Below the pieces are notes generated by a model, which saw only the letters and a list, made by a program, of their open reading frames with translations, ran no database searches and had not been told where the DNA came from. Shown piece by piece: positions 26,671 to 41,508 of a DNA stretch of 64,000 nucleotides (positions within the stretch are counted from its first letter, which is position 1; each line of letters begins with the position of its first letter). Both the position numbers and the translations under genes were made by a program. This stretch comes from an uncultured Lachnospiraceae bacterium (GTDB lineage: Bacteria; Bacillota; Clostridia; Lachnospirales; Lachnospiraceae), in NCBI GenBank assembly GCA_902781455.1, contig CACZJF010000002.1:94985-158984 (forward strand), in the 5' to 3' direction.

Positions 26671-26749
26671 CGTCGGAGCGAAACAGTCATCCCGCCTGCC
26701 GCCGGCAATGGCAGACCGGGGAATCAGAGAAACAGGAACAGGGTTATTC

Positions 26750-29700
26750 ATGCACGCATCACGCAGACACACGGGAGCATATTATTTCTGGATCGGAATG
26801 CTGATCCCGATCCTTCTGGCAGGAGTTGGATTCATTCTGATCGGGATCTGGCCTTTTGGCGACGGTACGGTTCTGATCATCGATTCTCTTCATCAGTATC
26901 TGCCGTTCTACACGGATTTTCATGAGAAACTGAGGTCGGGCGGGAGCCTTCTCTATTCCTTTTCGGCAGGGTTCGGCTACAATTTCTGGGCGACCTATGC
27001 CTATTACCTGGCCAGCCCCGTCAACTTCCTGATCGCGCTTGTGCCGACGGAAAATGTATGTGATTTCATGGATCTGGTGATCCTTCTGAAGATCGGACTG
27101 TGCGGCGGAACCATGACCTGGTACCTGCACCGCAGAAACACCAGGGCATTTGGGCTGAGCGCGGCGTTCGGGACGATGTTTGCCCTGAGCAATTTCATGA
27201 TCGGGTATTATTTCAACCTGATGTGGCTGGACTCCGTGGCGATGCTTCCTCTGTGCATGTGCGGGATCGAACGCATCTGCGGGATCGGGAAAAACCGCGT
27301 CCTGTCAGATTCCTCGGATGGCAGACTGTACGGAATCGCCCTCGCGTTCGGGATCTGGTGCAATTATTATATCGGCTTCATGCTGTGCATCTTCTCAGTG
27401 CTCTACTTCTCGGTCTGCCTGATCACTGCCGGCAGATGCAGTGTGAAAAGATTCTTCTCGAGAGTCGTACGCTTTGGCTGGTGGTCTGTTCTGGCAGGCG
27501 GGTGCGGGGCCGTGGTGCTGCTGCCCGCTTACCGCGCGCTTACGATCTCGGAAGCGATGCAGGACAATCATCTGCCGCTGACGCTGGATACATTCGACAG
27601 CCTTCTTGACATGCTGCTGACGCATTTCGCGATGATCAAACCGATCAATATCGCGAACACACAGGTCGGACTGAACGCGTACTGTGGAGTGAGTGTCCTG
27701 ATCCTGGTCCTTCTGTTCGCACTGGACCGGTACTGCCCGCTCAGGGAAAGGATCGCCAGGATCGCGCTTGCAGGGGTTCTGCTTCTGAGCTTCAGCATGA
27801 AGACGCTCAATTATATCTGGCATGGGTTTCATCAGCAGAACGGACTGCCGAACCGGTTCGCGTTCGTGTACATCGGCATCGTACTGACGATGTCCTATGA
27901 CGCGCTGAGAGACCTGAAACGGCTGAGTCTGTGGCGCGTAATCGTGGGAGGAACCGCCCCGATTGTCTTTGCGCTGGTGTGCCTGATCGGGCAGTATGGG
28001 GAGGACTATGAGAACTATCGATATCCGAATGAGGTATATCTGGTAACGCTTGCCCTTCTGGCCGGTTACCTGGTGATACTGCTTGTCCTGCGCCGGGTCC
28101 GGATGCCGAGGCGCGCGGCAGGCCTGCTTCTTTCCGCTCTGTGTATTACGGAGGCAGGTGCCGGCGGAATCTACGGAATCATCTGCAACGATTCCGTCAC
28201 GCGGTCCATCTATCTGGATGACCAGCGCTCCTATAAAAGCCTGATGGCGCAGATCGCGGACGAAGACTGGTACCGTTCCGAGGTGGATGCGCAGAGGATG
28301 CGGAACGTAACCTTGTTCTGCGGCGGCAATTCCATCGTCATGTTCAACTCCACCATGCAGGAGTCGGTGACGAACTTCTGTGACCGGATCGGCATGGAGG
28401 CGCGTACCAACAAGAACGGCTACAATGGGGTCACGGACCTGATGAATGACGTGTTCGGCATCCGGTATGTGCTGAGCGCGCACGGCAAGGGCAGTACGCT
28501 GTACGGGTTTGAGGAGCTTACGAAGGATAACAATCTGACGGTATACAAGAATGACAATGCCCTGCCCATCGGCTTCCTGGCCAATCCGGAGGTCACACAG
28601 TGGGATCTGTCCGGACCGACGCCGATCGATGTCCAGAACGATTTTGTGCAGCTGGCTGCCGGTCATGATCCGATCTATACGCTGGACCGTTATGTGACGC
28701 TCAGGACAGATGAGACCTGTCCGATCCGGATTCCGGAAGGGAAACAGGTTTATGTATATCTGCCGGACCGTGTCAGTGAACTGGTGGTGAAAACGCCGGA
28801 ATTCACGAAAACCTACACTACATTTACGGATCATCTGTATGTGATTGAAGCATGCGACGATTCCTTTGAAGCCTCCGTGGACGCGAAGACCAAAGGAAGC
28901 GCCGGGCAGGAAGCCATCATCTATACCTGTCCTGACGCGCTGGAGGAGGAAGTGGTCGAAACACTGTCGGCAAGTGTCCTGGAGCAGGTCAGGACTAAGG
29001 GCAGTACACTGTCGGGAACCATCCGGGCGGACCGGGACGGAGAACTCGTGCTCACGATCCCCTATGACCGGAACTGGACCTGTCTGGTGGACGGCGAGAA
29101 GGTGGAGGCAGACCTGATCGGCGAGGCGCTGACGGGACTGGCACTGACGAAGGGCGAACATCAGATCAGGCTTTCTTATCTGCCGGATGGCATCCGGACA
29201 GGACTTGCCGTGAGCCTTGTCTGCCTGGTACTGATGACAGTCACCTTCCTGTATGAGAGAAAAAAGAGAAAGAAAGAGACAGCCATGGCAGAAGAAAGAG
29301 CATATACAGAGGAAATCGCGGCCGGCCTGATCGATATTGTGGGAGAGGAGGCCTGCCTGGAACACGAAAGCATGAAGAAGCATACGACCTTCCGGATCGG
29401 CGGAGAGGCAGATGTGTTCGTCATGCCCCGCAGTGAAGAGGAACTTTCATATGTCCTGGCTTACTGCCGGCAGAGCGCGGTCCGCCATGCTGTCATCGGA
29501 AACGGAAGCAATCTGCTTGTCTCAGACCGGGGATACCGCGGCGTCATCATTCAGATCGCGAAGAATCTGTCCGGGATCCGGGTGGAAGACTGTGAGATAG
29601 AAGCGCAGGCGGGCGCGCTGCTTTCCTCGATCGCGCGCCGGGCGATGGAGTCGTCTCTGACCGGAATGGAAGCACTTTCCGGGATTCCGGGAACCCTCGG

Positions 29701-30220
29701 CGGCGCCCTGACCATGAATGCGGGGGCATATGGCACGGAGATGAAGGACATCGTCAGATCCGTGCGCGTGCTGGATGAGGAAGGCCGGATCCGGGAGCTT
29801 TCCTGTGAGGAAATGGAATTCGCTTACCGCACTTCCGTCGCGCAGAGAGAAAACATGATCATTCTTTCCGCCTGCCTGGTGCTGCAGAACGGAGAGAAGG
29901 AGCAGATCCAGCGTGCTATGGATGAACTGCGTGAAAGACGCCAGTCAAAACAGCCGCTGGAGCTTCCAAGCGCCGGATCGACCTTTAAGCGGCCGGAAGG
30001 ATACTATGCAGGGGCCCTGATTGAGCAGGCAGGCCTGCGCGGATACCGGGAGGGCGGTGCCCAGGTATCGGAGAAACACTGCGGTTTTGTCGTCAACACG
30101 GGCGGCGCGACAGCGGAAGACGTACTCAGACTGATCCATGCGGTACAGGATGCGGTGTATGAGAACACAGGCGTCAGGCTGGAACCGGAGGTCAGGATGC
30201 TGGGGTTTGAAGACGACTGA
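26750..30220 (+). CDS. YfhO-family membrane protein fused in frame to MurB
   Basis: One uninterrupted frame encodes two proteins that are normally separate. Residues 1-845 are a YfhO-type polytopic protein: many membrane helices, the early DSLHQYLPFYTDF motif, and a large extracytoplasmic beta-rich region. YfhO proteins are implicated in glycosylation of wall polymers. A final helix and a basic ERKKRKKE stretch lead to residues 846-1156, a full UDP-N-acetylenolpyruvoylglucosamine reductase: FRIGGEADVFV, the FAD-binding GNGSNLLVSDRGYRG, and GIPGTLGGALTMNAGAYG. MurB would thus be tethered on the cytoplasmic face. ATG 29285 could also start MurB alone, but its ribosome site is weak. ATG 26708 is an alternative start. 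Confidence 0.85.
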   Translation: MHASRRHTGAYYFWIGMLIPILLAGVGFILIGIWPFGDGTVLIIDSLHQYLPFYTDFHEKLRSGGSLLYSFSAGFGYNFWATYAYYLASPVNFLIALVPTENVCDFMDLVILLKIGLCGGTMTWYLHRRNTRAFGLSAAFGTMFALSNFMIGYYFNLMWLDSVAMLPLCMCGIERICGIGKNRVLSDSSDGRLYGIALAFGIWCNYYIGFMLCIFSVLYFSVCLITAGRCSVKRFFSRVVRFGWWSVLAGGCGAVVLLPAYRALTISEAMQDNHLPLTLDTFDSLLDMLLTHFAMIKPINIANTQVGLNAYCGVSVLILVLLFALDRYCPLRERIARIALAGVLLLSFSMKTLNYIWHGFHQQNGLPNRFAFVYIGIVLTMSYDALRDLKRLSLWRVIVGGTAPIVFALVCLIGQYGEDYENYRYPNEVYLVTLALLAGYLVILLVLRRVRMPRRAAGLLLSALCITEAGAGGIYGIICNDSVTRSIYLDDQRSYKSLMAQIADEDWYRSEVDAQRMRNVTLFCGGNSIVMFNSTMQESVTNFCDRIGMEARTNKNGYNGVTDLMNDVFGIRYVLSAHGKGSTLYGFEELTKDNNLTVYKNDNALPIGFLANPEVTQWDLSGPTPIDVQNDFVQLAAGHDPIYTLDRYVTLRTDETCPIRIPEGKQVYVYLPDRVSELVVKTPEFTKTYTTFTDHLYVIEACDDSFEASVDAKTKGSAGQEAIIYTCPDALEEEVVETLSASVLEQVRTKGSTLSGTIRADRDGELVLTIPYDRNWTCLVDGEKVEADLIGEALTGLALTKGEHQIRLSYLPDGIRTGLAVSLVCLVLMTVTFLYERKKRKKETAMAEERAYTEEIAAGLIDIVGEEACLEHESMKKHTTFRIGGEADVFVMPRSEEELSYVLAYCRQSAVRHAVIGNGSNLLVSDRGYRGVIIQIAKNLSGIRVEDCEIEAQAGALLSSIARRAMESSLTGMEALSGIPGTLGGALTMNAGAYGTEMKDIVRSVRVLDEEGRIRELSCEEMEFAYRTSVAQRENMIILSACLVLQNGEKEQIQRAMDELRERRQSKQPLELPSAGSTFKRPEGYYAGALIEQAGLRGYREGGAQVSEKHCGFVVNTGGATAEDVLRLIHAVQDAVYENTGVRLEPEVRMLGFEDD

Positions 30221-30279: not shown

Positions 30280-31134
30280 ATGAGATTTGTGGTAGTGACC
30301 GGAATGTCCGGATCAGGAAAGACACAGGCTCTGAAGATGCTGGAGGATATGGGTTATTTCTGCGTGGATAACCTGCCGCTGGAGCTGATCGGAAAGTTCG
30401 CGGAGCTTGCTGCCGCGCCGGCGCAGGAGTACAGCAAGGTGGCCCTCGGACTGGATGTAAGAAGCCTGTATAAGGGCAGAGAAAGCGTGGGACGGTTTCT
30501 GGAGATCATGAAAGCGTATCCGCACGAGATTCTCTTTCTGGACTGCAGCCAGCAGCAGCTGGTGCGGCGGTACAAGTATTCCCGCAGGCTGCACCCGCTC
30601 GCCCAGGGAGACCGGATTGAAGACGGGATCACGAGGGAGAGAGCGTATCTGATGCCGCTGCGGAACACGGCGGATTACGTGATTGACACAAGTGACCTGC
30701 TGACCAGACAGCTTAGGGAAGAGATGTCCCGCCTGTTCTCGGAAGGCGTGGATCAGAGCAGCCTGTTTTTATCCATTCTCTCCTTTGGCTACAAATACGG
30801 GATTCCGTCGGATGCGGACCTGGTTTTTGATGTCCGGTTCCTGCCCAATCCTTTCTATGTTGATGAGCTGAAGCATAAAACCGGGAATGACCCTGAGGTG
30901 CAGCAGTATGTATGCCAGGGCGGTGAGGCGGATACGTTTCTGAAAAAGATAACGGATCTTCTGGAATTCCTGATTCCGAAGTACTGCGCGGAAGGCAAGC
31001 GGCAGCTGATGATCTGCGTGGGCTGCACCGGCGGCAAACACCGGTCCGTCACCATGGCCAACAAAATCGCGGAAGCATTTGTCAAAAGCCCCTGGACGGT
31101 CTCGGTACTTCACAGGGATATCGCACGGCAGTAG
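30280..31134 (+). CDS. rapZ: RNase adapter RapZ / P-loop nucleotide-binding protein
   Basis: A 284-residue member of the RapZ/YvcJ family. The P-loop is GMSGSGKTQALK at the N-terminus, the second nucleotide motif GLDVRS lies near residue 62, and the C-terminal domain has the invariant CTGGKHRSV segment. In enteric bacteria the protein guides RNase E to a small RNA that controls amino-sugar synthesis; in Gram-positives it binds nucleotides and affects wall metabolism. Its position after MurB and before whiA is the usual Firmicutes arrangement, though yvcK, often found between rapZ and whiA, is missing here. Confidence 0.94.
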   Translation: MRFVVVTGMSGSGKTQALKMLEDMGYFCVDNLPLELIGKFAELAAAPAQEYSKVALGLDVRSLYKGRESVGRFLEIMKAYPHEILFLDCSQQQLVRRYKYSRRLHPLAQGDRIEDGITRERAYLMPLRNTADYVIDTSDLLTRQLREEMSRLFSEGVDQSSLFLSILSFGYKYGIPSDADLVFDVRFLPNPFYVDELKHKTGNDPEVQQYVCQGGEADTFLKKITDLLEFLIPKYCAEGKRQLMICVGCTGGKHRSVTMANKIAEAFVKSPWTVSVLHRDIARQ

Positions 31135-31142
31135 GAGAAGAG

Positions 31143-32102
31143 ATGTCATTTTCGTCCGGAGTCAAAGAAGAGCTTGCACTTGTCAACAGCCCTGCGAGGC
31201 ACTGCGCGATCGCACTCATTGCCGCGCTGTTTCATCTGTGCCCGGTCCTGGAGAAGGAACACGCCGGGATCAGGACAGAGAATCCGTACGCGGCTGCGGC
31301 GTTTGAAGCCGCGCTCAGAAGGGTCAGGCTCGAAAACATAGAAGTGGCAAAGAGCGGACGGGAGATCGTCGTACAGATTGCAGGAGAGCAGCAGGTGACC
31401 AGATTCCTGGAAATGCTCAAGCTTGATCATGCAGTCCGCATGGGGGAGGCCGGAAGCGGACAGCTCGCGGATCAGGCGGCGGCCTGGCCTGTGTCTCCTG
31501 TCCTGCTGCAGAAGACCTGCTGCAGGAAGACATTTCTCCGCGGCCTGTTTCTCGCGGCAGGATCGGTGAGCGATCCTTCCGGGAGCTATCATCTGGAGAT
31601 TGCCCCGCTCGGCGGGGAAGATGCGGAAGCTGTTCTGAAGCTGCTTTCGTCCATCGGTTTTCAGGCAAAATGCACCCGGAGGAAGGGGCGCAGTGTCGTC
31701 TACCTGAAGGACGGAGAGCAGATATCTGATTTTCTCGGATCCATCGGGGCAACGCAGAGCCTGATGAAGCTGGAGAATGCGAGGATTTTGAAGGACATTG
31801 CGGGAAACATCAACCGGCAGGTCAATTTCGAAGCGGCGAATCTGAAGAAAACCGGGATTGCTTCAGACAGGCAGATGGAGGATATCGCCCTCATAGAGCG
31901 GACGATCGGCATTCATTCCCTGAGCGAACCGCTTCAGCAGGCCGCCCGCCTGAGAACCGAGAATCCGGACGGAAGCCTGCAGGAACTGGCGGATGCTTCC
32001 AATCCCCCGGTCGGCAGGAGCGGAATCAACCACCGGCTGCAGCGCCTTGCCCAAATCGCGGCGAAGATCCGGGAGAAAGAAGGTTACGCATCATGGCAGT
32101 GA
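31143..32102 (+). CDS. whiA: DNA-binding protein WhiA
   Basis: A 319-residue WhiA protein with an N-terminal LAGLIDADG-like fold (FLRGLFLAAGSVSDPSGSYHLE in two halves) and a C-terminal helix-turn-helix (LQELADAS, VGRSGINHRLQRL). WhiA is a sporulation regulator in actinobacteria and affects cell division or chromosome segregation in Firmicutes. The start lies 8 bases after the rapZ stop behind TAGGAGA. The last 10 bases overlap the next gene in another frame, so translation is probably coupled. Confidence 0.94.
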   Translation: MSFSSGVKEELALVNSPARHCAIALIAALFHLCPVLEKEHAGIRTENPYAAAAFEAALRRVRLENIEVAKSGREIVVQIAGEQQVTRFLEMLKLDHAVRMGEAGSGQLADQAAAWPVSPVLLQKTCCRKTFLRGLFLAAGSVSDPSGSYHLEIAPLGGEDAEAVLKLLSSIGFQAKCTRRKGRSVVYLKDGEQISDFLGSIGATQSLMKLENARILKDIAGNINRQVNFEAANLKKTGIASDRQMEDIALIERTIGIHSLSEPLQQAARLRTENPDGSLQELADASNPPVGRSGINHRLQRLAQIAAKIREKEGYASWQ

Positions 32103-33310
32103 CATATTATATCTCGGTCACGCTTGCACTGTTTGCCGGCGCGCTTCCGGCACAGATCCTTGGTGTGATCTGGGAAATGATTGGTGAGAGCATGACCGTA
32201 GAGATTCCGTATATCGCACTGCTGCGGCTTTTGGGAAGCGCAGGAGCAGTGGCGGCGGTGATTCTTTCCGACCGGATCAGGGGCTATATTCTGGCCAGGG
32301 ATCTCATCGTGGGGGCAGTCGCCCTGGAGGCGATGTCCCTGATCGGTTTCTCCATGTCCAGAGAATTCTGGAATCTGGCGGTATGGATCACTGCGCTGGG
32401 GTTTTCTCTGGGGCTGTGTATGACGCTGATCTGCTATCTGCTCAGGGGAACCTGGTCAAAAAAGACAAGCCTTCTGTTTGCTGCCAGCGCTTTGGGGATG
32501 GGGGCAGGTGTTTTCTTTGTGCGATACACCCTCTCCCTGGGACGCAGCTGGCGTACGGCATGCCAGGGACTGGCAATTCTTCAGGTTGTGCTGTGCATGA
32601 GCGTTTTTCTTCTCAGGAGAACGCTCATGCGTGACGTTGCTGTCATCCTGAAAAAACAGAAGCGGGAGAGAGGAATCCAGAGACAAAAACGTGCCGAGGA
32701 ACTGATCCGGAAAAAGGGTTCCGTGGATGAGCGTTTTGAAGAAGCCTGGCTGATCCGGCTTCTGTTTCTGTACGGATCAGCTGTCAGCTGCGGCCTTCTG
32801 CTGCTTTCGGCGGCTCACCTGACTTACAGCGCCCAGGCGGCGCAGCAGAATCCGGCTGCGGATCTGGCAGTGAGCGTTTTGACCGTATGCGCAGGCATGG
32901 CGGCGGGCCGGATTGTGATCGGATTTCTCCGGATCAATGCCAGGCGTGCGTGCCTGGCCGGTTCGGTTCTTTCGACAGCCGTTCTTGCGGTCTGCTTTAT
33001 CATGGTACAGACGGGACAGACAGCAGACTGGATTGTGCTGCCTGTGCGGGCCGGCTGCGGGTTTGGAGCGGGTATGATCTTTCCAAACCTGATTCAGCTG
33101 GACGATGAGCGTTTTGATGAAGAAGCGCAGACGGGCATGGCCGGTCTGATTCCGGCGTTTTACTTCGGAGCGGATGCCATGATCACGCCCTTTGTACAGT
33201 CAATCTCACGCTCATTTACGATGTCTGCCTGTACGCTGGCGATGCTGGCGCTTTCGTGCTGTATGGGGCTGTGTATAATCCTTGCCACAGCGCGGATGGG
33301 AAGAAGGTAA
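32093..33310 (+). CDS. MFS-like membrane protein
   Basis: A 405-residue polytopic protein with about eleven to twelve hydrophobic segments, resembling a major facilitator transporter. The central basic, coiled loop (about residues 185-220, rich in KKQKRER) matches the cytoplasmic loop that joins the two halves. The GAGMIFPNLIQLDDERF stretch near residue 325 is notable, but no substrate motif is recognised. It begins within whiA and ends 9 bases before the kinase-like gene, so it is part of the rapZ-whiA operon. Transport function is inferred from topology alone. Confidence 0.7.
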   Translation: MAVTYYISVTLALFAGALPAQILGVIWEMIGESMTVEIPYIALLRLLGSAGAVAAVILSDRIRGYILARDLIVGAVALEAMSLIGFSMSREFWNLAVWITALGFSLGLCMTLICYLLRGTWSKKTSLLFAASALGMGAGVFFVRYTLSLGRSWRTACQGLAILQVVLCMSVFLLRRTLMRDVAVILKKQKRERGIQRQKRAEELIRKKGSVDERFEEAWLIRLLFLYGSAVSCGLLLLSAAHLTYSAQAAQQNPAADLAVSVLTVCAGMAAGRIVIGFLRINARRACLAGSVLSTAVLAVCFIMVQTGQTADWIVLPVRAGCGFGAGMIFPNLIQLDDERFDEEAQTGMAGLIPAFYFGADAMITPFVQSISRSFTMSACTLAMLALSCCMGLCIILATARMGRR

Positions 33311-33319
33311 GGAGGAGGC

Positions 33320-33946
33320 ATGGAGAATTATATCATCACGATATCCCGCCGGTTTGCGAGCAAGAGTCATGAGATCGCCGGTATGATGAGCAGCGCGCTG
33401 GGCATACCGGTTTATGACCGGAGCGCCGTGGAGGCCAGAGTGCAGAGCCTGCAGATGGAACTGGGGAAGGGCGAAAGCGACGAGAAGGCAGCAGAAAAAA
33501 ACCGGACGGAAACCGGGACGAAGAGCCTTCTGATGGGACTGTTCCGCCGTGAGATACACGATGAAGTCCGCGATGAAGCACAGCTGGAGTTTGAACGGCA
33601 GAGCCAGGTCATCCGTGCTCTTGCCCAGGAAGGATCCTGCATCATCCTCGGACGGTGCGCGGACCGGCTCTTTGAGGAACATCCCCGCGCGCTGCACGTC
33701 TTCATCTATGCCTCCGATGAAGCGCGGATCAGGAATACCATGCAGATGCTGCACACCGGGGAGGAAGAGGCCAGGGCGCTCGTCCAGAATGAGGACAGAG
33801 CCAGGGAAGCATACCGCAGAAGATTCTCTTCCCACCCGGAGGATGAGGTTGCCGGGCGCCATATCCTGATTGATTCAGGGAAGCTCGGCGTTGAGAAGAG
33901 CGCGGATATCCTGGTACAGGCGGCAAAATACCTGTTCTATGAATAA
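33320..33946 (+). CDS. Cytidylate-kinase-like protein with altered P-loop
   Basis: A 208-residue protein of the cytidylate-kinase-like family. The order ITISRRF..., HEIAGMMSSALGIPVYDR, CIILGRCAD and HVFIYASDEARI fits that fold. In typical members the P-loop begins ISRQFGSGGREIG; here it reads ISRRFASKSHEIA, without the glycines, so ATP binding by the classical loop is doubtful. Such proteins are common in Clostridia and their role is not known to me. AAGGAGGAGG gives a strong ribosome site. Confidence 0.75.
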   Translation: MENYIITISRRFASKSHEIAGMMSSALGIPVYDRSAVEARVQSLQMELGKGESDEKAAEKNRTETGTKSLLMGLFRREIHDEVRDEAQLEFERQSQVIRALAQEGSCIILGRCADRLFEEHPRALHVFIYASDEARIRNTMQMLHTGEEEARALVQNEDRAREAYRRRFSSHPEDEVAGRHILIDSGKLGVEKSADILVQAAKYLFYE

Positions 33947-34003
33947 GCAAGGGGTTATGTTATACTGTTACAGTTCAGGGGAAAGGAAAGGGGAGGAACT
34001 GAC

Positions 34004-34453
34004 ATGAGATGTCCATATTGCGGAAGCGATGACACCAGGGTGACGGATTCCAGGCCGGTGGAGGAGACGAATTCCATCCGGCGCAGAAGGCAGTGTGACC
34101 AGTGCGGAAAGCGGTTTACGACATATGAGAAGATCGAGGCCATTCCGCTGGTCGTGATCAAGAAGGACAGTACCAGGCAGCAGTATGACCGCAGCAAGAT
34201 TGAGTCCGGCGTGATGCGTGCCTGCTACAAGCGTCCGGTACCGATCACGCAGATTGAGTCCATGATCGACAAGGTTGAGGCGGATATCTACAGCCGGAAG
34301 GGCTCCGAGGTCAGCAGTGCCGAGATCGGCGAGATGATCATGCACCGTCTGAAGGCGCTCGATCCGGTCGCTTATGTCAGGTTTGCTTCCGTCTACCGGG
34401 AATTCAAGGATGTAGAGACATTCATGGACGAGCTGAAAACGCTGATTCACTGA
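34004..34453 (+). CDS. nrdR: Transcriptional repressor NrdR
   Basis: A 149-residue regulator of ribonucleotide reductase genes. The N-terminal zinc ribbon (MRCPYCGSDDTRVTDSR, then CDQCGKRFTTYE) is followed by an ATP-cone domain beginning near PLVVIKKDSTRQQYDRSKI. It binds ATP/dATP and represses nrd operons at NrdR boxes; no nrd gene lies in this window. A TATACT element at 33961 may be the -10 box of its promoter. It is separated by 47 bases from the large unknown protein that follows. Confidence 0.95.
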   Translation: MRCPYCGSDDTRVTDSRPVEETNSIRRRRQCDQCGKRFTTYEKIEAIPLVVIKKDSTRQQYDRSKIESGVMRACYKRPVPITQIESMIDKVEADIYSRKGSEVSSAEIGEMIMHRLKALDPVAYVRFASVYREFKDVETFMDELKTLIH

Positions 34454-34500
34454 ATCAGCCGGAACATGCATTGCCATAGAGTGAATGATGAGGTTTTGTT

Positions 34501-37500
34501 GTGCGTAGACGCCTGGAACAGCTTCTGAATGAGTCATTTGAATATGATGTGCCTGCTCTTGTCTATGAGCCTGCGTCCATCAGTGAACAGGCGGACGAGG
34601 GAGCAATCCTTCGGGGGAGTGTTCTGGTTTCTCATCCGGAGGGGAAGAGGTGCAAGGGGTTTGTATATTCTTCCAATCCCCGGGTTGTCCTGCAGACGGA
34701 AGATTTCTACAGTCCGAAGTCTGAGATCCGCTACCAGGCGGATCTGACCGGACTTACGGCGGGAGAGACGGCGGAAGGAAAACTGACCATCTGCTCTGAA
34801 CTGGGGGAAGTATCCATTCCCTACTCTTTTCATGTAAAGGAAGCAGTGCTTCCGGAAGAGCCGATGGATACAGAGTCTCTGGCGCAGCTTGCTTCCACCG
34901 ACATGAATGCCGCGGCACAGATCTTTACTTCATCGCGGTTTGACCGGTTTCTGGAAGGGGCAGGCTATGAGACACGCACCATGCGGCAGGCCCTCGGCGG
35001 CGAGGAAGAGGCGAAGCATGCCCTGGAACAGTTCCTGATCGCGGAGGGGAAGAAGGAGATCATCGAGCTTTCTCTCTCGCGGGAAACGCAGCGGATCGTG
35101 AACCCGGGAGGAACCATTCTGGAAGAGGTTACGCTGACCAAGAGTACCTGGGGGTATATGGAGATCAGCATCACCTCCGACACACGGTTCCTGCGCGTAG
35201 AGAAGAAGCATCTGACGACGGAGGATTTTATCGGATCCGAGTGTCCGCTCCGTTATGTCATCGATTCGAATTTTCTGCATGCCGGGCGTAATTTCGGAAG
35301 AATCACCGTACATACCTGTTACCAGACGCTTGCTTTTGAACTGTGCGTAGAGGTCAGGGGAGGGGCGGATCTTCGCGCGCACCGTGTGCAGAATGTCATG
35401 GTCCGGAACGCCATCAGCCTGTATCTGGATTACCGGCTTGGAAGGATCGACCTGCGCCAGTGGACGGAACGCACCAACGGTGTCATCGAGAGCTATCAAA
35501 GAACAGGCGGAAAGAATCTTTTTGCGGATCTGCTGAGTGTGTTTGTCCTGCAGGCGGCAGGCAAGCGTTCGTCCGCGGAACGGCAGCTGCGCCGGATCGA
35601 GCAGAATCCGGAGATTCTGGAGGATGCCAACGCGCAGGCGGTATGGCTCTATCTGTCCACCTTTTTCTCCCACGATCAGGACTACAGAATGCATGTGCGG
35701 GAGCAGATGCGGGAGCTTTCCCTGAAGAACCGCTCCTCATGGCTGATCCTGTGGCTGAATCTGTACCTTCTAGAAGACGAGCTGGGAGGAGAAGGCGGGA
35801 AACTCGAGAGAATCCTCCGCTATCTGGAGCAGTACAGAGCAAGCACGATTCTGCTGCTGGAGGGTGTGCAGATCATACGGGAAAACCCGTTCCTGATCCA
35901 TGAATGGACGCCGGGCGCGCGTATGCTTCTTTCATGGGCTGTCAAGGAAAAGACCCTGGACGAGCGGCTGGTCCTGCACAGCATGAACCTGATCCGGCGC
36001 AGGGGCGGATATGATCCGTCTACGTTCCGGATGCTGGAAGCGTGCTGGGAGGAGACGAATCTGGACGATGTGCTGGCCGTCCGCACGGAGATGGCAATCG
36101 CCGGAGAGAAGACGGACGAAAAGTATTTTCCGCTCTATCAGAGTGCCGTCGCGCGCGATCTGAAGATCACCGGACTGTACGAATATTATATCCGCACCAT
36201 GAGTGAGGTCAGAATCGAACAGATGCCGCAGGTGATCCGCAGGTACTTTATCCTGAACGACACCATGGACTGGCGCAGGAAAGCGCGCATCTACCGGAAT
36301 CTGTCTGACTCTGAGGAAAACATACCGCAGATTTTCTCTGCCATGCGGCAGGGGATGGAGAAGTTTGTCACGGATCAGATTCAGATGGGGCATATCAATG
36401 AGGACCTGTCTGTCCTGATTTCCAGATATCTTGTGAAGCAGATGGTGACGCCTCAGCTGGCGAGGAAGCTGATCCGGCTGCTGTTTACCTTTGAGGTCGA
36501 CTGTCTGAGTCCGGACATGAAGAAGGTAATCGTGGCAGACGAGCGCAGGAGCAGGGAACACTCCTGCGCGATTGTGGACCACATGGCGCAGGTGCGGATC
36601 TACTCGGAACAGTCCCGGATTCTTCTGGAGGACGAGGCTGGAAGACGGTATACCTCAACCTCACTGTACATGGCGCAGCATCTTCTCAACGACACGTCCC
36701 TGATGAACCTCTGTGTCCGGGAGGCGGTGGATGATCCGTCTCTGGTGATGTTCTTTACGCTGAACCCGAAGGTCAGGCAGCCGATTACGCACAAGACCCT
36801 GAAGTTCTATCTCGAGGCGGCGCGGATGGCCGCATTTTCCGAGAGCTACCGGACGCAGCTGAAGACATGGCTTCTGGAATATTACTATGCCAATCCCCAG
36901 GAAGAGACCCTGTCGTCTTTCCTGCGGGAAAGTGACATGGAAACTTATGTGCGCATCGACCGCGCGAAGTACCTTTCCCTTCTGACGGTGGACGGAAGGT
37001 ATGAGCGGGCATGGCTCGTGCTTGAGAAGTACGGAATCCAGGATGTGGATCTGAACCTTCTGATGCGGATTCTGTCGCAGATCGTCATTTCCAGGGAGTA
37101 CGAGGAGAACCGGACCCTGCTTGGAATGTGTGCCGCCCTGTTTGCCGCCGGAAAGGTGGAGGAGCATATGCTCATCTATCTTCTGATGTACTATGAAGGT
37201 CCGGTGGAAAGCATGAAGAATCTCTGGCGCGCCGGGCGCGAATACGGGCTGGAGACCATCAACCTGGAGAAAAAGATCCTGAGCCTGATCCTGTTCATGC
37301 GGCAGGGAAGCGAGAACAGTGAGCAGATCTACCGGTCCTACCGGAGATCTCTCGGAAGCCGCAGAATCTGTCAGGCCTATGTGATTCTGAGGAGCTATGA
37401 GTACCTGGTCAAAGGCAGTCCTGTCCTGGAGACCGTTTTTGATGACTGTCTGACCGATTATAAAAAAGGCGGCAAGCTGCCGGACGTATGCGCGCTCGCG

Positions 37501-38034
37501 CTTCTGCAGTACCTGAGCAGGCTTCCGGAATATACCAAAGAACAGAGAGAAGCTGCCGTGACCCTTCTGCAGATGTATTCCGGAAGAGGCATACGGTTTG
37601 CCTTCTTCCAGAGATTCCCGTTTGACATGCGCCGGAATCTCGGCTGTGACGACAGGGTATTCTGTGAGGCGGTTGCCAGCACCAAAAGTACAGTGAAGCT
37701 GTTTTACCGGATCCGTTATGAAAATGAGCCTTTCACAGAGGTTACCATGAAGGATGTATTTGAAGGGATCCGCGTGAGGGAGTTTGTTCTGTTTGAGGGA
37801 GAGCAGCTCGAATGCTACACGGAGGAGACGAAAGAGGACGGCAGCAAGGTGGTCAGTTCACACCGTGTCCTGAAGGCAGGCGCGGTTCCTGAAGAACTGC
37901 AGATGAGCCGTTACGGAAGAATGAATCAGATGGCACGGGACCTGGAAAAAGGGGATGAAGCCGCGTTCCGGGAGGAACTGAAGGAATACAGGCAGCTGGA
38001 TGCCCTTACGAAGGAGCTGTTCACACTGCTGTAG
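34501..38034 (+). CDS. Very large DUF5717-like protein
   Basis: A 1177-residue soluble protein, probably DUF5717 (recalled, not searched). It begins at a GTG after TGAGGT. The N-terminal 290 residues hold two beta-sandwich-like segments; the second reads like an Ig-type fold, with FLRVEKKHLTTEDFIG and HAGRNFGRITVHT. The remaining 880 residues look almost wholly helical with TPR-like spacing. There is no signal peptide or catalytic motif. The next gene starts 12 bases after the stop and the third overlaps it, so three proteins are made together. A scaffold or client-binding role is inference only. Confidence 0.75.
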   Translation: MRRRLEQLLNESFEYDVPALVYEPASISEQADEGAILRGSVLVSHPEGKRCKGFVYSSNPRVVLQTEDFYSPKSEIRYQADLTGLTAGETAEGKLTICSELGEVSIPYSFHVKEAVLPEEPMDTESLAQLASTDMNAAAQIFTSSRFDRFLEGAGYETRTMRQALGGEEEAKHALEQFLIAEGKKEIIELSLSRETQRIVNPGGTILEEVTLTKSTWGYMEISITSDTRFLRVEKKHLTTEDFIGSECPLRYVIDSNFLHAGRNFGRITVHTCYQTLAFELCVEVRGGADLRAHRVQNVMVRNAISLYLDYRLGRIDLRQWTERTNGVIESYQRTGGKNLFADLLSVFVLQAAGKRSSAERQLRRIEQNPEILEDANAQAVWLYLSTFFSHDQDYRMHVREQMRELSLKNRSSWLILWLNLYLLEDELGGEGGKLERILRYLEQYRASTILLLEGVQIIRENPFLIHEWTPGARMLLSWAVKEKTLDERLVLHSMNLIRRRGGYDPSTFRMLEACWEETNLDDVLAVRTEMAIAGEKTDEKYFPLYQSAVARDLKITGLYEYYIRTMSEVRIEQMPQVIRRYFILNDTMDWRRKARIYRNLSDSEENIPQIFSAMRQGMEKFVTDQIQMGHINEDLSVLISRYLVKQMVTPQLARKLIRLLFTFEVDCLSPDMKKVIVADERRSREHSCAIVDHMAQVRIYSEQSRILLEDEAGRRYTSTSLYMAQHLLNDTSLMNLCVREAVDDPSLVMFFTLNPKVRQPITHKTLKFYLEAARMAAFSESYRTQLKTWLLEYYYANPQEETLSSFLRESDMETYVRIDRAKYLSLLTVDGRYERAWLVLEKYGIQDVDLNLLMRILSQIVISREYEENRTLLGMCAALFAAGKVEEHMLIYLLMYYEGPVESMKNLWRAGREYGLETINLEKKILSLILFMRQGSENSEQIYRSYRRSLGSRRICQAYVILRSYEYLVKGSPVLETVFDDCLTDYKKGGKLPDVCALALLQYLSRLPEYTKEQREAAVTLLQMYSGRGIRFAFFQRFPFDMRRNLGCDDRVFCEAVASTKSTVKLFYRIRYENEPFTEVTMKDVFEGIRVREFVLFEGEQLECYTEETKEDGSKVVSSHRVLKAGAVPEELQMSRYGRMNQMARDLEKGDEAAFREELKEYRQLDALTKELFTLL

Positions 38035-38046
38035 TGAAGGGAAGAC

Positions 38047-39210
38047 ATGGAAGACGAAAAACGGATACTGATCGGAATACAGATGTCTGCGGATGGTGCT
38101 CAGATTACCTGGTACAACAGTACGCTGACGGAACCCCAGACACTGTCCTTGCCCGGAGAAGGGGAGGACGGTCTGATGAGTGTGCCTTCGGAAGCCTGGA
38201 AGGGAGCAATGCGGGGCGGAAGGTTCGGCACGCAGGCACTGACACGCTTTCTCGCCGGAATGATTGACACGGTTCCGGGCGAGAAACAGATCAAGGACCT
38301 CAGGATTGCCATCACGGTGCCTTCCCTGACACAGAGCCTCGGAGACCATCTGGTCGCGGCGCTGGAGAGCCTGGGAGCAGAGCGGAAAAACATCTTCCTG
38401 CAGGACTGGAGGACAAGTTTCTACTACTATGTGATCAGCATGCGCAGGGAGCTGTGGAGCGGCGATGTCGCATTCCTCCGGGTGAAGAATCAGCAGATGG
38501 TCGGGAGCATCCTCCACATAGACCGCTCCGTGAAGCCGGCGGTTGTGACGATCGATGAGATCGCCTCAGCCGATGTCAGCGAGCGCGCGCGGGGAGGCAT
38601 GAACGACGAGGACTGGGACCGTGAGCGGGACCGCCGTCTGTATGAACTGCTGGGCAAACTGTTTGAGCGCCGCAATGTCACCACAAGCTATCTCTACGGA
38701 AATTACTTTGACAGAAGCTGGGCGCAGAGATCTTTTCAGTATCTGACATTCCGCAGACACGCGTTCCAGGGCCAGAACCTGTTCTCAAAGGGTGCCTGCT
38801 ACTGCGTCATGGCCAGACTTGGCTATGTGAAGATGCCGGATCTTCTGTTCATGGGCGTAGACCAGATCAGTGAAGACATCGGTATCCGCATCAGGGTACG
38901 CGGGAAGGAGCAGTATCAGGTCCTGATTCCCGCCGGACTGAACTGGTATGAGGCACATTGCCAGATTGACATGATCCCCGACGCAGAGAAGAGCGTGACG
39001 ATCCTGACCACTCCCGCTGACGGCGGCGAGACCGTGGGGCATGTACTGAGGCTTGATCATTTTCCGGAGCGGGAGAACCGCGCGACCCGCCTGCGCATGA
39101 CCATCTATTTCACAAGCCGCAACCGCTGTGAGATAGAGGTGGAGGATCTTGGGTTCGGCGGCTTCTATCAGCCGACGGGAAGAGTCTGGAAGAGACAGGT
39201 GATCCTATGA
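38047..39210 (+). CDS. DUF5716-like protein with Hsp70/actin-like features
   Basis: A 387-residue soluble protein, probably DUF5716 (recalled, not searched). The N-terminus RILIGIQMSADGAQITWYN resembles the phosphate-1 strand pair of actin/Hsp70 ATPases. DLRIAITVPSL followed by a helix and ERKNIFLQDWRTSFYYYV resembles the region where Hsp70 reads VPA and then an ExxAA-type helix, and FSKGACYCVMARLG matches the place of the Hsp70 GAA segment. The last 120 residues are beta-rich and could stand for a substrate-binding sandwich. Classic glycine-rich phosphate loops are weak, so ATP use is uncertain. It shares 4 bases with the following gene. Confidence 0.7.
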   Translation: MEDEKRILIGIQMSADGAQITWYNSTLTEPQTLSLPGEGEDGLMSVPSEAWKGAMRGGRFGTQALTRFLAGMIDTVPGEKQIKDLRIAITVPSLTQSLGDHLVAALESLGAERKNIFLQDWRTSFYYYVISMRRELWSGDVAFLRVKNQQMVGSILHIDRSVKPAVVTIDEIASADVSERARGGMNDEDWDRERDRRLYELLGKLFERRNVTTSYLYGNYFDRSWAQRSFQYLTFRRHAFQGQNLFSKGACYCVMARLGYVKMPDLLFMGVDQISEDIGIRIRVRGKEQYQVLIPAGLNWYEAHCQIDMIPDAEKSVTILTTPADGGETVGHVLRLDHFPERENRATRLRMTIYFTSRNRCEIEVEDLGFGGFYQPTGRVWKRQVIL

Positions 39211-40004
39211 GTTTTGATCTGTGCAGCACGAAGATTGCGGAACGGCCGTTCTACATAGGAAGCATCGGGACCCGGATCTATTCCCTTGAGGAACTGTGCT
39301 TCTTTCTGTATCATAATCTCTGCCTGATCGATGACAACGTGGCATCGATGGCTCTGGTGGAATGGGTGAGAGAGGATCTCGGCCTGAAGAATCTGGCAAA
39401 GAAGCTGTCTGACGCGCTGGAGCGTCCGGACAAGGATGTCAGCTATTTTGTCCTGCCTGTCTTTCAGGAGGCAGGATATCTTCCTGTCGGAGAATCCAGA
39501 CGGGTGAGAGAAGAACTGACCAGGGTGCAGGTCCAGCCCCAGGAGCAGCGGCTGAAGACGCGCGCGGACTATCTGCTGAAGGGCGGTCGACTCCAGGCTG
39601 CCGCGCTGATCTACAGGGACATTCTGGAAAACCGCAGCGAGGGCATGCTGAGCGCGGCGTTCTACGCGTCGGTCTGGAACAACCTCGGCTGCGCGCTGGC
39701 CAGACAGTTCTGTTTCCAGGAAGCGGCGGACGCGTTCCTGAACGGGTGGAAGTCCTTTCAGACAAGAGAGCTGATGCGCAAATATGTCAGCACGCTTCCT
39801 CTGTTCCTGTCGGATGAGGAGTACCGGCGGACACTGGAGGAGTTCGGCGCGGATCATGTGCTGACCGGAAAGATCCAGGAGTACAACGCCGCCGCCGCGA
39901 AAAAGGTGAAGGAGCGGCTGTCCGCGCAGAGCCGGCCGGAGAAGGACAGTGTGGCCGAGCTGGAAGAACTGAAGGATGAATACCGGCGAAGTACGGTAAG
40001 CTGA
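39207..40004 (+). CDS. TPR-like helical protein coupled to the Hsp70-like gene
   Basis: A 265-residue soluble protein starting at an ATGA overlap. Residues 115-205 form what look like two to three TPR-type helical hairpins (ADYLLKGGRLQAAALIYRDI, then WNNLGCALARQFCFQEAADA). The first 100 residues, including GSIGTRIYSLEELCFFLYHN, are helical with a conserved look that I have no name for. The end is charged and probably coiled. Its coupling to the Hsp70-like gene suggests a co-chaperone or adaptor role; this is inference. Confidence 0.65.
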   Translation: MSFDLCSTKIAERPFYIGSIGTRIYSLEELCFFLYHNLCLIDDNVASMALVEWVREDLGLKNLAKKLSDALERPDKDVSYFVLPVFQEAGYLPVGESRRVREELTRVQVQPQEQRLKTRADYLLKGGRLQAAALIYRDILENRSEGMLSAAFYASVWNNLGCALARQFCFQEAADAFLNGWKSFQTRELMRKYVSTLPLFLSDEEYRRTLEEFGADHVLTGKIQEYNAAAAKKVKERLSAQSRPEKDSVAELEELKDEYRRSTVS

Positions 40005-40050: not shown

Positions 40051-41508
40051 ATGAGGAAAGAGACAGGGATATTTGACGCAGGAGAGATCCTGGATGAGCC
40101 TCGTGAGGAATGCGGGGTTTTTGGCATGTATGACTTCTCCGGGCAGGAGAATGCGGCGACGACGATCTATTACGGTCTGCTGGCTTTGCAGCACAGGGGA
40201 CAGGAAAGCTGCGGAATCGCGGTGAGCGATACGTCCGGCCCGAAGGGGAGGGTCCAGAGCCGCAAGGGGATGGGCCTTGTGAATGAGAATTTCGGGGAAA
40301 ATGACCTGGATTCCCTTCACGGCGACATCGGTGTCGGCCACGTCCGCTATTCGACAGCCGGCGCGAGCACGATCGAGAACGCGCAGCCTTTGGTGCTTCA
40401 TTATATCAAGGGCACGCTCGCCATGGCGCACAACGGAAACCTGGTGAATTCACCGGAGCTGATGCGGGATCTGTCGCGCACAGGCGCGATCTTCCAGACG
40501 ACCACGGACTCCGAGCTGATTGCGTATGAGATTGCCCGGGCACGCATCAACACCGGATCGGTCGAGGAAGCCGTATCGAAGGCAATGGACCGGCTGAAGG
40601 GTTCCTATTCCCTGGTGATCATGAGCCCGAGAAAGCTGATCGGCGCAAGAGATCCTTTCGGGTTCCGGCCTCTGTGCATCGGCAGAAGAGGAAAAGCGTG
40701 GTTCCTGGCATCCGAATCCTGCGCCCTGGATACCATCGACGCAGAGTTCGTCCGGGATGTGGAACCCGGAGAGATCGTCACGATCAGTCCCAGATTCGGA
40801 ATCCATTCCGACAGGAGCCATTGTATCCGCCCGTGCAAAACCGCCCGGTGCATCTTCGAATATATCTATTTCGGAAGAGCAGATTCGGTGATTGACAAGA
40901 TTCCGGTCTACAGCTCCAGACTGCTCGCGGGACGGTTCCTTGCCAAGGACAGTCCGGTGGATGCCGACCTTGTCATCGGCGTACCGGAATCCGGAAGCGC
41001 CGCCGCGCTGGGCTTCAGCATGGAGAGCGGGATCCCCTATGGACAGGGGTTCGTCAAGAACGGATATGTGGGAAGAACCTTTATCAAGCCGGGGCAGCAG
41101 AGCCGGGAGTCCGCTGTCCGGGTCAAGCTGAACCCTCTCCGGCCGGCAGTGGAAGGAAAACGTGTTGTCATGATCGATGACTCGATCGTGCGGGGTACCA
41201 CCAGCGACCGGATTGTCAGGATGCTGCGGGAAGCCGGGGCAAAAGAGGTTCATATGCGGGTCAGTTCGCCTCCGTTCCTCTATCCGTGCTACTTCGGAAC
41301 AGACATCCCAAGCAGTGAGCAGCTGCTTGCCTACAACAGGTCTCTGGAGGAGGTAAGGCAGATCATCGGAGCGGACAGTCTTGCGTATCTGAGGATGGAA
41401 AGGCTGGCTGAGATTGCGGACGGCATTCCGATCTGTACCGGCTGCTTCAACGGCGAATACCCGATCGATCCGCCGGAAGAGGACATACGCGGATCGTATG
41501 AACCCTGA
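40051..41508 (+). CDS. purF: Amidophosphoribosyltransferase
   Basis: First committed enzyme of purine synthesis, 485 residues, transferring glutamine amide nitrogen to PRPP. The nucleophile Cys is at residue 21 (REECGVFGMYD), so a 20-residue propeptide would be removed as in Bacillus. The PRPP-binding site is VVMIDDSIVRGTTS. Cys residues at the places of the Bacillus iron-sulfur ligands are visible (in CKTARCIFEYIYF, CYFGTD and CTGCFNGEYP), pointing to a 4Fe-4S protein. The ribosome site is weak. It is followed by purB and purA, but no purine riboswitch is seen in the 46 bases upstream. Confidence 0.95.
   Translation: MRKETGIFDAGEILDEPREECGVFGMYDFSGQENAATTIYYGLLALQHRGQESCGIAVSDTSGPKGRVQSRKGMGLVNENFGENDLDSLHGDIGVGHVRYSTAGASTIENAQPLVLHYIKGTLAMAHNGNLVNSPELMRDLSRTGAIFQTTTDSELIAYEIARARINTGSVEEAVSKAMDRLKGSYSLVIMSPRKLIGARDPFGFRPLCIGRRGKAWFLASESCALDTIDAEFVRDVEPGEIVTISPRFGIHSDRSHCIRPCKTARCIFEYIYFGRADSVIDKIPVYSSRLLAGRFLAKDSPVDADLVIGVPESGSAAALGFSMESGIPYGQGFVKNGYVGRTFIKPGQQSRESAVRVKLNPLRPAVEGKRVVMIDDSIVRGTTSDRIVRMLREAGAKEVHMRVSSPPFLYPCYFGTDIPSSEQLLAYNRSLEEVRQIIGADSLAYLRMERLAEIADGIPICTGCFNGEYPIDPPEEDIRGSYEP

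Follow-up and report, generated by a model that had tools for sequence, protein, structure and literature searches.

A three-gene unit of Lachnospiraceae with a degenerate Hsp70, a candidate remnant of a multi-Hsp70 chaperone operon

INTRODUCTION

The DNA considered here, referred to as the window, is a stretch of 64,000 nucleotides from an uncultured Lachnospiraceae bacterium (GenBank assembly GCA_902781455.1, contig CACZJF010000002.1, positions 94,985 to 158,984 of the forward strand), whose genome is a draft of 2.39 Mb that is 81% complete. This report concerns a unit of three genes in the window, designated A, B and C, of which B encodes a relative of the chaperone Hsp70 that has lost the motifs of its ATPase, and it considers the unit as the likely reduced form of a larger operon found in other families of the same order, here called sister families.

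THE THREE-GENE UNIT

The unit comprises the following features, in positions of the window:

34490..34493, + strand: GAGG, a ribosome-binding-like sequence 7 bases ahead of the GTG of gene A
34501..38034, + strand: gene A, 1177 amino acids, GTG start; DUF5717_N plus DUF5717 (Pfam, order-wide profile)
38047..39210, + strand: gene B, 387 amino acids; pseudo-Hsp70, DUF5716 (Pfam, profile comparisons)
39207..40004, + strand: gene C, 265 amino acids; an N-terminal domain, then a short TPR region

An initial annotation, made from the letters alone, had described three tightly packed and coupled open reading frames (ORFs), and its coordinates, the 12-base spacing between A and B (38035-38046) and the 4-base overlap between B and C (39207-39210) are all exact in the sequence. 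It had also stated that none of the three has an assigned function. This holds in so far as no function is named, but A and B already belong to Pfam families: A matches DUF5717_N (PF18984; E 7.6e-208, 692.8 bits, cut-off 25) and DUF5717 (PF18983; E 1.5e-80, 271.1 bits, cut-off 25), and B matches DUF5716_C (PF18980; E 1.2e-85, 287.5 bits, cut-off 34.7). These are existing names without function, for which the Pfam text says "unknown function" only. An NCBIfam scan of the three proteins returned nothing usable, and the open-licence papers searched contain no description of the unit or of a GrpE/VWA gene cluster; the one paper there on DUF5716/DUF5717 is, in the text available, unrelated. Chance origin of the three ORFs is excluded by the Pfam matches of A and B together with the conservation of the unit described next.

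DISTRIBUTION AND GENE ORDER IN THE FAMILY

DUF5716_C is present in 145 of the 150 Lachnospiraceae genomes sampled, many of them drafts, including the genome of the window. Four of the five genomes without B (G029, G091, G098, G128) are likewise without the C-terminal DUF5717 domain of A. With regard to a mobile or defence role, the DUF5716 match is single in all 145 positive genomes except G129 and G137, a pattern that does not look accessory. A sample of 291 genomes from across the class contains 281 that are not Lachnospiraceae, only three of these sharing its order; among the 281, PF18980 was found in none and PF18984 in one, below the cut-off.

Two sets of loci were compared, with ORFs called by a simple longest-frame script that small or overlapping genes may escape, as C of the window and one sister-family gene (H1 of G490, see below) did. 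The first set, the window plus 43 loci chosen non-randomly, with divergent copies and long open frames deliberately included, has B in 43 of its 44 sources (not in L086). A lies directly upstream of B in 42/43 and C follows B in 37/43 (36 by script, plus the window, where the script took an ORF on the opposite strand instead), while the two are fused in 5/43 (L045, L048, L049, L050, L051); at L084 neither A nor C stands beside B, and tblastn with eight copies of each found none there. The second set holds the best 80 of at least 595 loci; B was called in 79, of which 75 show A-B-C in order and the other four have A-B, with C either uncalled or displaced by an ORF call. The median gap is 17 bases between A and B (at most 60 bases in 113/121) and 12 bases between B and C (at most 60 bases in 105/111). 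The neighbourhood survey thus bears out conserved adjacency in other genomes, the order being held across both sets. A further gene, gene 5, follows C in 71/79 loci of the second set and 14/43 of the first. Two records that contain B, titled as metagenome-assembled genomes of Ca. Gastranaerophilales (L155) and Bacillus sp. (L127), look like mislabelled bins.

A LARGER MULTI-HSP70 OPERON IN SISTER FAMILIES

A search for Hsp70 in relatives led to gene clusters in other families of the order. Their members run in the order AN, AC, Hsp70 (H1), a GrpE protein (X), B, Hsp70 (H2), Hsp70 plus VWA (H3) and a TPR protein (C), sometimes with gene 5. By Pfam, AN matches the front of DUF5717 and AC the remainder; X has a C-terminal GrpE domain in all four copies scanned (5.4e-12, 1.4e-14, 3.4e-12, 2.6e-11), and H3 combines Hsp70 and VWA in both copies scanned. 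The three Hsp70s, H1, H2 and H3, have intact ATP motifs. The AC profile has matches in 145 of 295 genomes examined in the order, 48 of them Lachnospiraceae and 97 in 15 other families, and gives five weak partial matches only among 278 genomes outside the order.

Of those 97 genomes, 25 were hand-picked for variety and their loci inspected. The full order occurs in 14/25. A is fused in some of these, and in some, such as G464 and G527, an additional unlabelled ORF is interposed between members. Seven loci are partial, G507 and G657 by the stretch examined and G453, G454, G457, G459 and G463 by contig ends. G490 has the operon without a detected X, G472 and G620 have AN-AC apart from the Hsp70 genes, and G462 has AN-AC-B only, the other HSP70 matches there being DnaK and two MreB-like proteins. 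In G452, one of the 14 with the full order, H3 and C are each spread over two ORFs (L234:6205-9384), so that the operon may be decaying there or the draft may contain errors.

A protein with a median length of about 416 amino acids occurs in 11 sister loci (e.g., L235:626-1930, L238:3771-5156), has transmembrane-like stretches in the two copies checked, and may be a further member of the operon; its profile matches none of 1927 ORFs from the family loci. Another Hsp70 context in the order is seen in G457 (L240:6161-9293), where the neighbours of an Hsp70 at a contig end are a PP2C phosphatase and a protein kinase.

GENE B AS A DIVERGENT HSP70

Profile comparisons place B as homologous to Hsp70 along its length, with the framework of the nucleotide-binding domain (NBD) and the beta part of the substrate-binding domain (SBD-beta) kept. 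In the sister families, 17 of 19 B proteins found were built into a profile that matches DnaK in the PDB at E 1.9e-24, collinear over 22-502 to 37-500. This profile matched 123 PDB sequences, and of the 60 listed all are named as Hsp70-type proteins except one "putative uncharacterized protein". The same 17 proteins bridge the two Pfam families, as 16 match DUF5716_C and 13 match Pfam HSP70 at E 0.001. The bridge also extends from the other side: an operon Hsp70 with intact motifs, L233_6, scores 41.3 bits on DUF5716_C, above the cut-off of 34.7, and L234_8 falls just below it (33.3). A profile of three intact H2 proteins retrieves 63 B proteins and no other ORF from the 1927 ORFs of the family loci (E 1e-5), where the H1 and H3 profiles match nothing.

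For B of the family itself, 24 diverse proteins give a profile that matches DnaK chains of the PDB with a best E of 2.9e-4 over the first part of the NBD, one chain also having a collinear, very weak (3 bits) stretch in SBD-beta; the profile also gives weak matches (E 0.035-0.061) to chains titled "Putative heat shock protein", which we take to be Ssz1, a protein considered below. HHalign of 117 family B proteins against seven DnaKs gives a probability of 85.2 over 388 columns, from the start of the NBD to the end of SBD-beta. Against the other groups the probabilities are 100 for sister-family B, 99.7 for H2, 94.0 for H3 (204 columns) and 87.7 for H1 (191 columns), compared with controls of 8.2 for MreB and at most 2.8 for 13 other families. 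B and Hsp70 align collinearly from the N-terminus through to the end of SBD-beta, which corresponds to about the last 120 residues of B, and the beta-rich C-terminal domain that had been noticed in the middle protein is here matched to Hsp70 SBD-beta by HHalign.

LOSS OF THE ATPASE MOTIFS

The motif residues, which presumably follow E. coli DnaK numbering, were counted in an alignment of 7 DnaK, 21 H1, 17 H2, 18 H3 (two of these rows being pieces of one gene), 19 sister-family B and 117 family B proteins and three truncated B-C fusions, with two of the five fusions left out. The counts of rows that carry each residue are:

K70, the catalytic lysine: DnaK 7/7, H1 21/21, H2 17/17, H3 17/18; sister-family B 0/19, family B 0/117, fusions 0/3
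E171: DnaK 7, H1 21, H2 17, H3 17; sister-family B 1/19, family B 0/117, fusions 0/3
T199: DnaK 7, H1 21, H2 17, H3 16; sister-family B 0/19, family B 4/117, fusions 0/3
Subdomain IIB glycine: DnaK 7, H1 21, H2 17, H3 17; sister-family B 11/19, family B 0/117, fusions 0/3

The catalytic lysine is thus absent from all 139 B rows, the Gly-rich phosphate loops of B are lost, and the two IIB columns examined are gaps in 120/120 family rows. Other residues remain: the phosphate-1 aspartate D8 is retained in 18/19 sister-family B, 106/117 family B and 3/3 fusions, D194 in 58/117 family B, and the first glycine of the adenosine loop in 139/139 B rows. In B of the window, Q stands at D8, R at D194 and a gap at K70, and part of the first NBD lobe is missing. 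The alpha-helical lid is absent as well, the B proteins shown terminating at the end of SBD-beta, as do the H1 and H2 shown. The intact set of ATP motifs of an ATP-driven Hsp70 (GTTN, K70, E171, GGGT, GGS) was accordingly not found in B. The mean pairwise distance among B proteins is 2.2-2.5 against 0.28-0.56 within H1-H3, about 4 to 9 times more divergent, in a sample of 19 sister-family B, 16 family B, 17 H2, 8/21 H1 and 8/18 H3.

By these counts B is already degenerate in the sister families, and it probably does not cycle on ATP. The initial annotation had read the middle protein as resembling the Hsp70/actin ATPase fold; the Hsp70 part stands, in divergent form, by HHalign and profiles, whereas the likeness to actin or MreB is disfavoured, and because the ATPase motifs are gone, B is better described as a pseudo-Hsp70 than as an Hsp70/actin ATPase.

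DIRECTION OF CHANGE

Family and sister loci are tied together by shared flanking genes. An aminotransferase gene on the opposite strand lies just upstream in 9/25 sister genomes (the profile match scoring far lower in one of them) and, in 15/43 family loci, at position -2; valyl-tRNA synthetase lies downstream in 2/25 and 11/43, respectively. An IQ-TREE phylogeny with 78 rows unites family B with sister-family B in a single clade (UFBoot 100), to which H2 is adjacent (100); within the clade, family B is joined first by B of G452 (100) and next by B of the two f96 genomes (99).

Among the 1927 ORFs of the family loci, the profiles of H1, H3 and X matched nothing and that of H2 matched B alone; as a control, the X profile recovered 17 sister-locus ORFs. 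Genome-wide, H1, the one member searched for at that scale, was found in 0/150 family genomes at 1e-70. That search included no positive control, but H1 copies that had not been part of the first H1 profile reached scores of 860 to 1109 bits. The most economical interpretation is loss of H1, X, H2 and H3 in the family, with retention of A in fused form, of B and C and, in many cases, of gene 5. The reduction to AN-AC-B in G462 is apparently independent of this loss.

THE PARTNERS A, C AND GENE 5

By Pfam and an order-wide profile, gene A is a fusion of two genes that are separate in most sister-family loci: AN, beta-rich, corresponds to DUF5717_N about 1-305, and AC, helical, to about 301-874 plus the C-terminal DUF5717. 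An Ig-like N-terminal part had been suggested for A; it is not proven, the AN profile of 13 sister-family proteins having no PDB match below E 0.14 and BACON_2 matching weakly (E 0.0025) in one of the 13. A PDB search with a profile of the full gene A gave nothing under E 0.77.

The third protein had been called TPR-like. C of the window alone has TPR matches below the Pfam cut-off only, though a profile built from 21 C proteins matches many TPR chains and is clearly TPR, and the sister-operon C scanned lies above the TPR cut-off. Gene 5 combines a coiled coil with a membrane segment, the six copies checked having one or two transmembrane-like stretches; none was seen in A, B or C of the window. 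Gene 5 was not found in the genome of the window, which is 81% complete, in a search without a positive control. No DnaJ match occurs in the trio or in the members of the sister operon that were scanned.

GENES AROUND THE UNIT

The immediate neighbours, which vary elsewhere on the upstream side, lie outside the unit:

34004..34453, + strand: nrdR (Zn ribbon plus ATP-cone by Pfam), upstream neighbour
40051..41508, + strand: purF-like gene (glutamine amidotransferase), downstream neighbour

Ahead of the trio, window positions 30280-34453 (+) hold genes for a RapZ-like protein, WhiA, an MFS protein and a cytidylate-kinase-like protein, then nrdR; RapZ, WhiA and MFS also adjoin the trio in the same-genus locus L053. 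Further upstream, a 1170-residue ORF (26708-30220, +) encodes a YfhO membrane protein (residues 31-836) and, further on in the same frame, FAD-binding and MurB_C domains (902-1165), and so looks like a YfhO-MurB fusion. A promoter and terminator scan gave signal near the shuffle expectation and was set aside, and an RNA-family scan at gathering scores matched the tRNA only.

DISCUSSION

Relation to known systems

As in DnaK and Hsp70 (PF00012), the NBD framework of B is followed by SBD-beta, but the catalytic lysine, the phosphate loops, IIB and the lid are missing. The closest parallel is Ssz1 of the yeast ribosome-associated complex, in which it works with Zuo1. In the available parts of two reports, Ssz1 is a lid-less Hsp70 that keeps SBD-beta, hydrolyses little or no ATP, has a stable partner, and has its SBD filled in cis by a segment of Zuo1 (PMC7083937, PMC8476630). 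Hsp70 descent, absence of the SBD-alpha lid and retention of SBD-beta are common to both, B showing loss of the catalytic motifs; the likeness may extend to the stable partner, which for B would follow from gene order and fusion. They differ in that Ssz1 is a yeast protein that binds ATP, whereas B is bacterial and lacks the binding motifs and IIB, and because the binding motifs are also gone B departs further than Ssz1. Nor do A and C show any Zuo1-like sign, with no J-domain in the partners scanned. By analogy, A-B-C would be a bacterial functional parallel to Ssz1/Zuo1.

In the sister operons, the position of X next to H1 and B also recalls DnaK2 of M. xanthus, for which the gene of a dedicated nucleotide exchange factor, MXAN_6672, lies beside a duplicated Hsp70 (PMC11019930, in the part available); that part mentions no pseudo-Hsp70, no partners like A and C, and no such operon.

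Weighing the explanations

We regard it as reasonably likely that A-B-C is what remains across the family, in reduced form, of a multi-Hsp70 chaperone operon, an ATPase-dead Hsp70 and its partners having been retained. Several observations weigh against this or against parts of it. When the profile is built from 59 closely related B proteins, a PDB search yields no DnaK, and single B proteins do not match Pfam HSP70 at E 1 (0/24 and 0/59), so the link between B and Hsp70 rests on diverse profiles and on intermediates; the direct HHalign comparison of family B with DnaK reaches 85% only, and the alignments with H1 and H3 span only about 200 columns. FastTree concurs with IQ-TREE, though with a support of only 0.68 for the B clade. 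G146 (68% complete) has A, as the DUF5717 C-terminal domain, without B, and G020 (67% complete) has B without A. No C was seen near the A-B locus of G462, for which reason C may be dispensable.

Among the alternatives, a role for A-B-C as a structural or regulatory complex that is no chaperone, with the NBD-like and SBD-beta-like parts of B serving only as protein-protein interfaces for the solenoid of A, for instance in envelope organisation via gene 5, is in our view unlikely. The transmembrane-like stretches of gene 5 and its position after C would suit it, and the absence of such stretches from A, B and C of the window may be listed on the same side; gene 5, however, was not found in the window's genome in the search described above, and the three intact Hsp70s and the GrpE protein of the sister operons indicate an ancestral chaperone role. 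That B still binds nucleotide in a non-canonical manner, as a working divergent Hsp70 machine served by the GrpE of DnaK or another exchange factor, seems distinctly improbable: D8 is widely retained, D194 persists in about half of family B, and the adenosine-loop glycine is in every row, yet the family rows have, with few or no exceptions, lost K70, E171, the G-rich phosphate-2 loop and IIB, B of the window has lost D8 and D194 too, and B has diverged several times more than H1-H3.

The NBD of Hsp70 shares its superfamily fold with actin, MreB and FtsA, and the initial annotation had itself left room for a protein of that kind. It is nevertheless extremely improbable that B belongs with the filament proteins of the actin/MreB/FtsA type and not with the Hsp70s, as HHalign gives MreB, the actin-like profile compared, a probability of 8 vs 85-100 for the Hsp70s, the SBD-beta of B aligns with Hsp70s, and the PDB matches listed for sister-family B are nearly all Hsp70-named. 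The actin/MreB reading is disfavoured on these HHalign grounds.

A proposed working of the unit

In the favoured explanation, the remnant of a multi-Hsp70 operon, B would no longer cycle on ATP and would act as a nucleotide-independent, low-affinity binder or as a docking subunit on A, the putative large scaffold. Its SBD-beta may be occupied by client peptide or else by part of A or C; C would serve as TPR adaptor and gene 5, in the loci that have it, as an anchor in the membrane. We infer that A, B and C work together as a complex because the gene order is kept and B and C are fused in some loci, and the apparently independent reduction to AN-AC-B in G462 counts further toward function as a unit. 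The arrangement of client binder and adaptor that had been proposed for the trio is a plausible candidate. More tentatively, and as a proposal that could well prove wrong, the near-core, ATP-dead Hsp70 on a DUF5717 scaffold may be a bacterial counterpart of the Ssz1 principle, derived from an undescribed multi-Hsp70/GrpE/VWA/TPR machine of the order and serving as an ATP-free platform for client holding or assembly, membrane-tethered where gene 5 occurs.

Significance

For the Lachnospiraceae, a near family-wide gene set (B in 145/150 genomes) that has so far carried DUF names only would gain, from the placement of B among the Hsp70s and from the sister-family operon with its three intact Hsp70s, pseudo-Hsp70 and GrpE-domain protein, an origin and a testable mechanism. 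The family and its sister families would together offer a natural series of forms, from a chaperone powered by ATP to one that has given up its engine yet keeps its partners, and the role of SBD-beta without nucleotide control would become testable in bacteria.

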